Origin: an uncultured cyanobacterium
GTDB taxonomy: Bacteria > Cyanobacteriota > Cyanobacteriia > PCC-6307 > Cyanobiaceae
DNA: 64,000 nucleotides
Assembly: GCA_903871775.1 (NCBI GenBank)
Contig: CAIQIA010000026.1
Span: 186,001-250,000, forward strand
Direction of reading: 5' to 3'
The notes beneath the pieces are model-generated. The model was not told where the DNA came from and did no database searches. It worked only from the letters and a program-made list of their open reading frames with translations. Shown here one piece after another: positions 1 through 6,722 of this stretch. Every line of letters begins with the position of its first letter. Within the stretch, counting starts at the first letter, position 1. A program made the position numbers and the translations under genes.

Positions 1-919
1 CCCGCTCGGCCCGGTCGATGGCGCTGTGGTGCAGGGCCAACCGGTCGTCCATCTCGGGGCAGGCCCAACGCAGGCACTGATGCCACTGTTCGGCCTGGTT
101 GCGGGTGTTGGTGAAGATCAGGGTCGACACCGCCGGATCGAGGGCCCCCACCAGCCGGTCGTGCATCCGCAGGCCCAGGTGGCCGGCCCAGGGAAAGCCA
201 TCGATGCTGTCGGGCAGCAGGGTGCGGATGGCCAGGGGCCGCTGCAGCGGGGCCTGCACCAGGGTGAAGGGGCGCCCCTCCCCCACCGCCGTGGCGGCGG
301 CCTCCTCGGGGTTGCCGAGGCTGGCGCTCACGGCCCAGGTGCGCAGCCCGGGGGAAAGGGCCCGCAGCCAGCTGAGGCAGAGCTCGGTCTGGGTGCCGCG
401 CTTGCTGCCCATCAGTTCATGCCATTCGTCGATCACCACCGCCCGCAGCCGCGCGAACAGGGCCGGCGCATCGGGGGAGGCCAGCAGCACCGCCAGCGAC
501 TCGGGTGTGGTGATCAGGATCTCAGGGGGGCGTCGCTTCTGGCGGGCCCGCTCGCCGGCCGTGGTGTCGCCGGTGCGCAGGCCCACCCGCAGGGGCCAGC
601 CCATGGCGGTGATGGGCTCCTGCAGGGCCACGGCCAGGTCGCGGCTGAGGGCCCGCAGGGGCGTCAGCAGCAGCAGCTGCAGGGCCGGCTCCTCGGACGG
701 GGGGGCCGCCAGCATCTGCGCCATCGGGCCCATCACCGCGGCATAGGTCTTGCCCGAGCCGGTGGGCACCTGGATCAGGCCGTCCTCGCCCGCCAGGTAC
801 GCCTGCCAGCAACGGCGCTGGAACGGCAGGGGCCGCCAGCCCCGCCGGCGGAACCAGGCCTCCACCGGCGCCAGCCGCGGGTCCCGGCGAGACCGGGGGG
901 AAGCGGCATCAGCCGGCAT
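1..919 (-). CDS. Ligase-associated DEXH-box helicase (Lhr-Core type), partial, 3' end beyond window
   Basis: My translation from ATG at 919: MPADAASPRSRRDPRLAPVEAWFRRRGW...IQVPTGSGKTYA (Walker A)...VVIDEWHELMGSKRGTQTEL (Lhr-type DEWH motif). Frame is open to the window edge, so absent from ORF track. Start overlaps the ligase stop. Confidence 0.9.
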   Translation of the reverse strand, partial: MPADAASPRSRRDPRLAPVEAWFRRRGWRPLPFQRRCWQAYLAGEDGLIQVPTGSGKTYAAVMGPMAQMLAAPPSEEPALQLLLLTPLRALSRDLAVALQEPITAMGWPLRVGLRTGDTTAGERARQKRRPPEILITTPESLAVLLASPDAPALFARLRAVVIDEWHELMGSKRGTQTELCLSWLRALSPGLRTWAVSASLGNPEEAAATAVGEGRPFTLVQAPLQRPLAIRTLLPDSIDGFPWAGHLGLRMHDRLVGALDPAVSTLIFTNTRNQAEQWHQCLRWACPEMDDRLALHHSAIDRAER

Positions 920-2609
920 CGGGGCTGACCTCCAGCAGCGCCCTGGCGCTGGCCAGGCTGTCGGCTTCGGCGGCGGGTTTGTCGCGGCGCCAGCGGGCGA
1001 TGCGGGGGAAGCGCACGGCGATGCCGCTCCGGTGGCGGCTGGAGGGCTGCAATCCCTCGAAGGCCAGCTCGAACACCTGCAGCGGTTCCACCGCCCGCAC
1101 GGGCCCGAAGCGTTCGCGGGTGTGCCGGCGGATCCAGCGGTCCAGCTCGCGGATCTCGCCGTCGTCGAGGCCCGAATAGGCCTTGGCGAAGGGCACCAGC
1201 TGGGGACCGCCGTCGGCGGCCGGGTCCCCGTCCCAGAGGCCGAAGGTGTAGTCGGTGTAGAGGTTGGCGCGCCGGCCGCTGCCGGCCTGGGCATAGAGCA
1301 GCACGGCATCCAGGGTGTGCGGCTCGCGCTTGTGCTTCCACCAGCTGCCCCGGCGGCGACCGGCCCGATAGGGGGAGCCAAGGTCCTTGAGCATCAGCCC
1401 CTCGGCACCGGCGGCGGCGGCCTGGCGGCGCAGGCACTCCAGGTCGTCCCAAAATGCCAGGGCAAGGGCGGGCGACAGGCGCAACCGGCAACCAGGGCCG
1501 TCCGTCGTCTCCGCCGCTGCCGCCGGCAGCAGCGCCTCCAGGCCGGCCCGCCGCTGGCCCAGAGGACGCTCACGCCAGTCGTCGCCGTCCATCTCCAGCA
1601 GGTCGTAGGCGACGAACACCGCCGGGCAGTCGGCCAGCAGCCGCGCCCCTGGCGCCTTCCGACCCAGGCGCCGCTGCAGCTGGTGAAAGGGGGCCGGCTG
1701 GGTCGCCCCCGCAGGCCACACGAGCACCTCCCCATCCAGCACGGTGCCGGCCGGCAGGTGGGCGGCCGCGGCAGCGACCAGCTCGGGGAAGGCCGGATTG
1801 ATCAGCTCCTCCCCGCGGCTCCAGAGAAACGTCTGGCCGGCGCGATGGATCAGCTGACCACGGATGCCGTCCCATTTCCACTCCACGAGCCAGCCATCAG
1901 GGGATCCCGGCAGGGGGGCGCCGCCGGCAGCGGGCGAGGGCAGCGGTGAGGCCAGAAAGAACGGATAGGGGCTGCTGGCGGCGGACCCGCCGGCCCCGGC
2001 GGGGGCCAGCAGGTCGCGCCAGGCCATGGATGAGGGCACGAAGCCCCCCATCAGCCGATGCTGCAGCAGCGACACCTCGAGGCCGCTGAAGGCCGCCAGG
2101 GCCTGCAGCACCAGCCCGGGCCCCACCCCCACGCGGAAGCCGCCAGTGAGCAGCTTGTTCACCACCAGCAACTCGGCCGGCGCCAGCTCGCACCAGAGGT
2201 CATGGACGGCAGCCGCCTGGGACGGGCCCTCCCCCTGGTCCCCCCTGGCGACGGTCGCCAGGGGGGGAAGGATCTGCTCCATCCAGACGTGCAGCGGCAG
2301 GGCGGCGCGGCTCGCGGTGGGATCGGGCCGCTGACGGTTCCAGAGCAGGGCCACGGTCTCGGCCGAATCACCCACCTGGGCATGGCAGTCGTCGACCAGC
2401 CAGGCCGGCAGCCCGCACCCCTCCAGACAGATCTCCCGCAGGCGGCGACCGGTGATCAGACGCCGGCGCTGGCGGCCCAGCAGGCAGTGCAGCGCCCAGG
2501 CGGCATCGACCGGTGCCGCAGCGGCGAAATAGGCCGTCAGCAGCCGCACCCGACCGCCCGTGGCGGTCGTGCAGTCCAGCTGTTCATACAACCGGCAGAA
2601 GGTCTGCAT
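909..2609 (-). CDS. ATP-dependent DNA ligase (ligase-associated repair cassette)
   Basis: ORF 909..2756; likely start MQTFCRLYEQLD at 2609. Contains nucleotidyl-transfer motif EWKWDGIRGQ, LDGEVLVW, EGLMLKD, SWWKHKREP. Confidence 0.93.
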   Translation of the reverse strand: MQTFCRLYEQLDCTTATGGRVRLLTAYFAAAAPVDAAWALHCLLGRQRRRLITGRRLREICLEGCGLPAWLVDDCHAQVGDSAETVALLWNRQRPDPTASRAALPLHVWMEQILPPLATVARGDQGEGPSQAAAVHDLWCELAPAELLVVNKLLTGGFRVGVGPGLVLQALAAFSGLEVSLLQHRLMGGFVPSSMAWRDLLAPAGAGGSAASSPYPFFLASPLPSPAAGGAPLPGSPDGWLVEWKWDGIRGQLIHRAGQTFLWSRGEELINPAFPELVAAAAAHLPAGTVLDGEVLVWPAGATQPAPFHQLQRRLGRKAPGARLLADCPAVFVAYDLLEMDGDDWRERPLGQRRAGLEALLPAAAAETTDGPGCRLRLSPALALAFWDDLECLRRQAAAAGAEGLMLKDLGSPYRAGRRRGSWWKHKREPHTLDAVLLYAQAGSGRRANLYTDYTFGLWDGDPAADGGPQLVPFAKAYSGLDDGEIRELDRWIRRHTRERFGPVRAVEPLQVFELAFEGLQPSSRHRSGIAVRFPRIARWRRDKPAAEADSLASARALLEVSPDAG

Positions 2610-3669
2610 TGCCCGCGTCTCCGTGGTCGGCATCGGCCCGATCTGCATCGCCCCGTTCGACATCGCCCCGTTCGACGACGAAATCGCCCTCGAGGGCCTC
2701 GGCCGCCACCCCCTCGTGCTCCCGCAGATAACGGCTGAGGCTGTCGCTCTGGCCATGGGTCACATAGACCTGGCGGGCGCCGGTCTCCCGCACCGTCTGC
2801 AGCAGCCCCGGCCAGTCGGCATGGTCCGACAGCACGAAGCCGCGTTCGACGCCACGGCGGCGGCGGGCGCCGCGCACGGCCATCCAGCCGCTCACGAAGG
2901 CGGTCTGGGGGCGGCGGAAGCGCTGCATCCACGGCGAGTGCTGGGCCGCGGGCGGGGCGATCACCAACCGACCCGCCAGGGACTCGCCCCGCGCCACGGA
3001 CGTGAGCGGGCGGGTGGGGGGGAGCTGCACACCGGCTTCGCGGTACGGGTCCATCAGGGCTTCGACCGCCCCGTGCAGCAGGATCTCGTCAGCGACGCCC
3101 AGCAACGCCAGTTCAGCCAGCAGCCGCTGGGCCTTGCCGAAGGCATAGGCGAACAGCAGTGAGGGGCGATCAGGGGCCGACCGCCACCAGGCCAGCACCT
3201 CGGCCGCCACCTCCCGCCCCGGCCGCCATCGGTAGATCGGCAGGGCGAAGGTGGCCTCGGTGATGCACACATCCGCCGTCACCGGGGCAAAGGCTTCGCA
3301 GCTCGGGTCGGCGCAGCGCTTGTAGTCACCGCTCACCAGCCAGCGCTCGCCGCCGGCCTCCACCAGGATCTGGGCGCTGCCGAGCACATGGCCGGCGCTG
3401 TGGAACGACACCCGCGCCCCGCCGATGCGCAGCCGCTGGCCGTACTCCACCGGCAGCAACGCGATGCCGCTGCCGAGCCGTCGCCGCAGGATGCCCTCGC
3501 TGCTGGCCACGGCCCAGTACCGGCCGCTGCCCGGGCGCGCATGGTCGGCGTGGGCGTGGGTGAGCAGCGCCCGGGGGACCGGACGCCAGGGATCGATCCA
3601 GGCCTCGGCGGCGGGGCAATACAGGCCCTGGGGGGTGAGCGTCAGCAGGCCGTCGGGGGGCAGGGGCAT
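2584..3669 (-). CDS. Ligase-associated DNA exonuclease (metallo-beta-lactamase fold)
   Basis: MPLPPDGLLTLTPQGLYCPAAEAWIDPWRPVPRALLTHAHADHARPG (HxHxDH), SAGHVLGSAQILVE, VSGDYKR; start overlaps none, 3' end overlaps ligase. Confidence 0.92.
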   Translation of the reverse strand: MPLPPDGLLTLTPQGLYCPAAEAWIDPWRPVPRALLTHAHADHARPGSGRYWAVASSEGILRRRLGSGIALLPVEYGQRLRIGGARVSFHSAGHVLGSAQILVEAGGERWLVSGDYKRCADPSCEAFAPVTADVCITEATFALPIYRWRPGREVAAEVLAWWRSAPDRPSLLFAYAFGKAQRLLAELALLGVADEILLHGAVEALMDPYREAGVQLPPTRPLTSVARGESLAGRLVIAPPAAQHSPWMQRFRRPQTAFVSGWMAVRGARRRRGVERGFVLSDHADWPGLLQTVRETGARQVYVTHGQSDSLSRYLREHEGVAAEALEGDFVVERGDVERGDADRADADHGDAGNADLLPVV

Positions 3670-3767
3670 CCAGAACGCGGCCAGCGGCCGTCTTCTAGCC
3701 GATCGGCTGGGGCGTTGACGATTGCAGGGCCCATGGTTAGCCCTTGGCAGTCACCGTGCCGACCGCC

Positions 3768-5870: not shown

Positions 5871-6722
5871 GTGCTGCGAGTGGCCATCGCCGGTGATCTG
5901 CACGGTCAGTGGGACGACCACGACGAGGCCGTGCTGCGCCGCCTGCAACCGGACGCCCTGCTGCTCGTGGGCGACCTGGCCGATGGCGATGGCCGCCTCG
6001 GCCGGCGCCTGGCCTCCCTGCCCCTGCCGGCGGCCTGCATCCTCGGCAACCATGACGCCGGGCGCGACGCCAGCGGCCGCACCATGGCCCGCATGGACCA
6101 GGCCCTGGGGGACCTGCACTGCCCCTGGTCCCTGCGCTGGCTGGACCCTCCGGGGCTGGCGGTGGTGGGGGGACGACCCGGCAGCGCCGGTGGTGGCTTC
6201 AATCTGTCCCAGGCGGTGCAGGCCCACTGGGGGCCCCTCGATCTGCTGCAGTCCGCCGAGCGCATCAGCACGGCGGCCCTGGCGGCCCCGGAGGGTCGGC
6301 CCCTGATCCTGCTGGCCCACTGCGGCCCCAGCGGCCTGGGCAGTGCTGCCAGCGACCCCTGCGGCCGCGACTGGAAGCGACCGGCCCTCGACTGGGGCGA
6401 TCTGGATCTGCGGGAGGCGTTGCAGCGCATCCGCCGCCAGCGACCTGTGCCGCTCGTGGTCTTCGGGCACATGCACCATCGGCTGCGCAGCGGCGGCTCC
6501 CGACGGCGGCTGCTGCGCGACGGCCAGGGAACCATCTTCTTCAATGCGGCCTGTGTTCCCCGCCACGGCCACGATGACGGCGGCCGACCGGTGCGGCAGT
6601 TCAGCTGGGTCGACCTGAACGACGCCGGCGGCGTCGAGGCCGTGAGGCTCTGCTGGCACGACACCGAGGGGGTGGTCAGGGCCCAGGATGACCTGCTGAG
6701 CAGCGAGCCGGTCGCATGCTGA
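5871..6722 (+). CDS. Metallophosphoesterase (cyanobacterial TIGR04168-like)
   Basis: MLRVAIAGDLHGQWDDHDEAVLRRLQPDALLLVGDLADGD...ILGNHDAG...LLAHCGPSG...VFGHMHH; GTG start. Confidence 0.85.
   Translation: MLRVAIAGDLHGQWDDHDEAVLRRLQPDALLLVGDLADGDGRLGRRLASLPLPAACILGNHDAGRDASGRTMARMDQALGDLHCPWSLRWLDPPGLAVVGGRPGSAGGGFNLSQAVQAHWGPLDLLQSAERISTAALAAPEGRPLILLAHCGPSGLGSAASDPCGRDWKRPALDWGDLDLREALQRIRRQRPVPLVVFGHMHHRLRSGGSRRRLLRDGQGTIFFNAACVPRHGHDDGGRPVRQFSWVDLNDAGGVEAVRLCWHDTEGVVRAQDDLLSSEPVAC

Follow-up and report, generated by a model that had tools for sequence, protein, structure and literature searches.

Gene layout at the locus

The window, i.e., the whole stretch of 64,000 nucleotides that was analysed, corresponds to C26:186001-250000 and is part of a 2.57-Mb assembly. 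Its left end carries three genes of a cluster which continues beyond the window edge. Positions are those of the window unless given for contig C26; a wider stretch (L002) is numbered such that an L002 position equals the window position plus 8000.

3669-2584, minus strand: EXO, 361 aa, first gene of the predicted operon
2609-909, minus strand: LIG, 566 aa
2584-2609, minus strand: EXO/LIG overlap, 26 bp
1..919, minus strand: 5' part of HEL, which starts at 919 and runs past the left edge of the window
909-919, minus strand: LIG/HEL overlap, 11 bp
C26:184442-186919, minus strand: complete HEL, 825 aa, with ~1559 more bases leftward of the window
C26:183699-184445, minus strand: PdeM (MPE), 248 aa, fourth gene, outside the window on its left side
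3670..3764: short gap between EXO and its neighbour, a divergent class I aldolase-type gene on the plus strand

The initial annotation had described three genes on the same strand with overlapping ends, and its coordinates hold for all of them. It had further suspected a fourth gene, a metallophosphoesterase of the PdeM type, to the left of position 1. Leftward extension of the contig uncovered exactly such a gene, a member of TIGR04123. HEL and PdeM overlap by 4 bp, the start of PdeM being located within the stop codon of HEL (ATGA). Thus, all four genes are clustered on one strand with overlaps of 26, 11 and 4 bp. To judge from this layout, the overlapping ends make co-expression likely. The operon promoter should then reside in 3670..3764 or within the start of the aldolase-type gene (start at 3744 or 3765). 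Control by LexA/SOS was considered and rejected: matches to a cyanobacterial-type LexA pattern were not above chance, and no LexA-like site of this pattern was found within 6 kb of the operon.

The open frame of LIG reaches up to 2756. The start was set at the ATG at 2609 because the family profiles begin there (NF006701 covers residues 1-560, from profile position 1). The plus strand carries long antisense ORFs, e.g., a 743-aa frame opposite HEL, which result from the high G+C content.

Two observations concern the surroundings. The end of PdeM overlaps the start of the next ORF on the same strand by up to 148 bp (C26:183699-183846; L002 5699-5846). This ORF of 523 aa has no NCBIfam or Pfam match, and the overlap takes in the C-terminal ~37 residues of PdeM, which are Pro/Arg-rich and outside the profile. 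A second calcineurin-like phosphoesterase, at 5871-6722 on the plus strand of the window, is a member of TIGR04168; it was excluded as the fourth gene and does not belong to the cassette.

Protein families and the proposed repair function

Families were assigned by NCBIfam profile bits against the curated cut-offs, domain architectures by Pfam. The profile search places EXO, LIG and HEL in ligase-associated families, as initially proposed, all above the cut-offs. The motifs that had been read by eye, HAHADH, KWDGIR, GSGKT and DEWHEL, are all present in the translations. Motifs and family scores of these three proteins are far beyond chance.

EXO scores 452.8 bits with TIGR04122 (cut-off 325). 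HAHADH represents the HxHxDH metal site, and SAGHVLGS and SGDYKR are further motifs. EXO is predicted to be a ligase-associated exonuclease of the metallo-beta-lactamase fold; its similarity to PDB entries is distant and limited to beta-CASP nucleases (CPSF3, RNase TTHA0252). A 15-bp tandem repeat of 3.3 copies (2627-2676), just before the LIG overlap, encodes an acidic C-terminal tail, GDVERGDADRADADHGDAGNADL, which is outside the family profile.

By its profiles and domains LIG is an ATP-dependent DNA ligase of the LigB/cisplatin damage response type. It reaches 556.2 bits with TIGR04120 (cut-off 400) and 657.4 bits with NF006701 (cut-off 543), and has the full LigB architecture (DNA_ligase_A_N/A_M/A_C) with EWKWDGIR as motif I. 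Its structural relatives are ATP-dependent DNA ligases of the archaeal and human type. The score with the LigD profile, 95.2 bits, is below the cut-off of 373.2, and no match to Ku (PF02735) was obtained in the window's own genome, which is ~96% complete; thus the two components of Ku-LigD end joining are not seen. The same genome encodes an NAD-dependent LigA. With LigA present and no Ku match, LIG is regarded as an accessory enzyme, and there is no indication of NHEJ.

HEL, a predicted DEXH helicase, scores 1024.2 bits with TIGR04121 (cut-off 850) and displays the full Lhr-Core set of RecA1, RecA2, winged helix and domain 4 (in Pfam: DEAD, Helicase_C, WH_Lhr, DEAD_assoc); the long C-terminal domain is missing. 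It contains GSGKT and DEWHEL and resembles the Mycobacterium smegmatis Lhr structure 5V9X (E 1.4e-61). PdeM scores 179.8 bits with TIGR04123 (cut-off 150). Its residues 11-211 resemble the Pseudomonas putida nuclease MPE structures 6NVO/6NVP (6NVO, E 3.9e-23).

What was observed directly is which genes are present, their order and overlaps, the families and key motifs of the proteins, and how the genes co-occur in relatives. These observations identify the locus, with very little room for doubt, as a ligase-associated DNA-repair operon that is complete with its four genes, EXO-LIG-HEL(Lhr-Core)-MPE(PdeM), the gene ends overlapping. The activities of the individual proteins presumably follow those of their homologues. 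In P. putida, Lhr-Core acts as a translocase and helicase with 3'-to-5' polarity (PMC8301817), and MPE is, according to a title in the reference list of that paper, a manganese-dependent single-strand DNA endonuclease.

We further infer co-transcription, a lesion and an order of action. In the most probable order, MPE would act first and nick DNA that is single-stranded or distorted at a lesion. Lhr-Core would then load on a 3' tail, move 3' to 5' and unwind the damaged stretch, whereupon EXO would trim the ends. The gap would be filled by a host polymerase from outside the cassette, and LIG would seal the nick at the expense of ATP, operating alongside LigA, the NAD-dependent housekeeping ligase. 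As to the class of lesion, bulky adducts or crosslinks are favoured by the name of the NCBI family (cisplatin damage response).

That the four genes, as one operon, process nucleic acids for a purpose other than the repair of DNA, such as the removal of RNA or RNA:DNA hybrids, is a reading we consider very unlikely. It draws on EXO, whose PDB relatives by sequence are solely RNA-cutting, CPSF-like beta-CASP enzymes, and on the fact that Lhr helicases also unwind RNA:DNA, M. smegmatis Lhr even preferring RNA:DNA duplexes (PMC8301817). P. putida Lhr-Core, unlike the M. smegmatis enzyme, has no such preference (PMC8301817). Further, LIG belongs to a type of DNA ligase that carries a DNA-binding domain at the N terminus, and the MPE homologue was published, by the title cited in PMC8301817, as a single-strand DNA endonuclease.

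The system itself is known and the locus in the window is an ordinary member. The operon is described in the literature as widespread in bacteria, its damage target being stated as unknown (PMC10140301); mutants of the cluster were not found in the open-access literature. The P. putida EXO-LIG-Lhr-Core-MPE cluster (Ejaz and Shuman 2018, 2019, as referred to in PMC10140301 and PMC8301817) comprises, according to these references, the same four families in the same cluster arrangement. The differences here, a cyanobacterial host and the repeat-derived tail of EXO, are at the level of sequence only. Actinobacterial Lhr from M. smegmatis, which goes with Nei2, shares the Lhr-Core helicase domains, whereas HEL has no long C-terminal domain and is accompanied by LIG, EXO and MPE rather than Nei2 (PMC11323726). 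The order EXO-LIG-HEL-MPE is also present in loci of Lysobacter, Achromobacter, Corallococcus, Pseudomonas and Gemmatimonadota. The initial annotation had raised a possible role under light or UV stress in a phototroph; members of the cassette occur in many non-phototrophic phyla and are thus not confined to phototrophs.

Co-retention and joint loss in the family

The sample comprised 150 genomes from the same order, which all belong to one family. All four genes are present in 115. LIG and HEL occur in an identical set of 117 genomes; EXO is found in those 117 and as a fragment in one more (G131). PdeM, in 115 genomes, has two exceptions among the 117. In G147 HEL is cut short at an apparent contig end; in G043, a case that speaks against the four-gene reading, EXO, LIG and HEL are present, and PdeM was not found even at loose thresholds. 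With the thresholds used, 32 of the 150 genomes gave no hit for any of the four genes.

The genes are frequently far apart. In genus g10 PdeM is 222-698 kb away from HEL in every genome that has both on one contig (15/15), and in genus g8 the distance is ~91-112 kb in most such genomes. All four genes are packed together, i.e., with gaps of <100 bases between profile matches, only in the window's genome and in genus g2. Genus g2 adjoins named Prochlorococcus loci in the trees and is, on this ground, identified as Prochlorococcus; g5 and g10 are presumably marine Synechococcus. Outside Prochlorococcus PdeM is non-adjacent in most of the family, a point against the operon reading: function does not depend on a shared transcript. 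A recurrent LIG-HEL spacer of ~3.8 kb in relatives was inspected as the site of a fifth cassette gene, and this candidate was dropped. In the one spacer viewed (L042) no sign of a repair function was seen; by eye its genes, which are on the opposite strand, seem to encode a membrane protein resembling spermidine synthase and a protein of the DUF4178 kind.

Thus, with near-perfect regularity a genome has all four genes or none, even when they are not neighbours. This, together with the complete packed operon, is what the present analysis adds. That unlinked genes are retained together is an independent argument for joint action of the four proteins.

The set is missing within genera which otherwise possess it: in G001, G023, G036, G068 and G131 (g2), in G004 (g5) and in G032 (g11). 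At loose thresholds none of these seven genomes has a full copy of LIG or EXO. In the Prochlorococcus genome G131 residues 1 to ~192 of EXO run straight into the final third of PdeM (L049 8017-8746, equivalent to G131:C1:146016-146745). LIG, HEL and the remainder between EXO and PdeM are missing, and EXO is frameshifted. We read this junction as the deletion that removed the cassette, a snapshot of its loss. G068 retains a PdeM remnant with stops, G004 a possible PdeM fragment of 48 residues (E 1.3e-5). Since many relatives of G004 carry an unlinked PdeM, joint loss in G004 probably took more than one deletion. That all four genes are lost together also speaks against the RNA-directed role discussed above.

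Patchy loss in the family and a rare, scattered presence in the rest of the phylum (the ligase was found in four of the sampled non-family genomes, one of them split) are accessory-like features and would fit a mobile cassette, or one for phage defence, in place of chromosomal repair. We consider this explanation hardly credible. The protein families were built and named as DNA damage response, the neighbouring genes are housekeeping-like in appearance, and the helicase and exonuclease trees group the genes of the family against those of other bacteria, which denotes long inheritance within the family. Picocyanobacteria constitute a natural experiment, close relatives with four genes or none, packed or scattered, and supply matched strains for finding which damage matters.

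Prochlorococcus and the ancestry of the cassette

The cassette was reported earlier from Prochlorococcus (ligB cassette; PMC7368042; PMC10140301), and in the Prochlorococcus genomes examined here the same four genes are positioned end to end on one strand. Its proteins are divergent, the ligase being 40% identical to that of the window, and are on long branches. In the helicase and exonuclease trees the family including Prochlorococcus is separated from other bacteria with 100 and 98% SH-aLRT, respectively, and the window proteins are positioned well inside the family group. An origin of the Prochlorococcus cassette from non-cyanobacterial bacteria was rejected on account of these two groupings. 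The ligase tree places Prochlorococcus beside Leptolyngbyaceae, a placement which, with a branch length of 1.9 and a biased composition, is not trusted. Because of very long branches and biased composition the tree position of Prochlorococcus is generally unsure.

A loss of the ATP-dependent ligase has been reconstructed for the stem branch of Prochlorococcus as a whole (PMC3940434, Table 6). This conflicts with the full four-gene cassettes which are common in Prochlorococcus (L029-L032, L093, L110); MED4 has an annotated ligB, PMM1679 (PMC7368042). Either Prochlorococcus regained the cassette, or the ortholog set of PMC3940434 missed a divergent copy. An AU test rejects a grouping of the Prochlorococcus helicases with the sampled g5/g10 helicases (p 0.0005), subject to the long-branch caveat. 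The test leans to a regain, a suggestion which shares the long-branch problem. One may speculate further that the four proteins are an indivisible unit, kept or discarded whole by selection despite dispersal over hundreds of kilobases, and that Prochlorococcus lost the set and then regained a packed cassette; we regard this as possible, though rather doubtful.

Prochlorococcus genomes devoid of the cassette contain a frame of 444 aa that weakly resembles the catalytic domain of the ligase (~36 bits), in the regions G001:C5:560430-561017 and G131:C1:1108653-1109240 and their equivalents.
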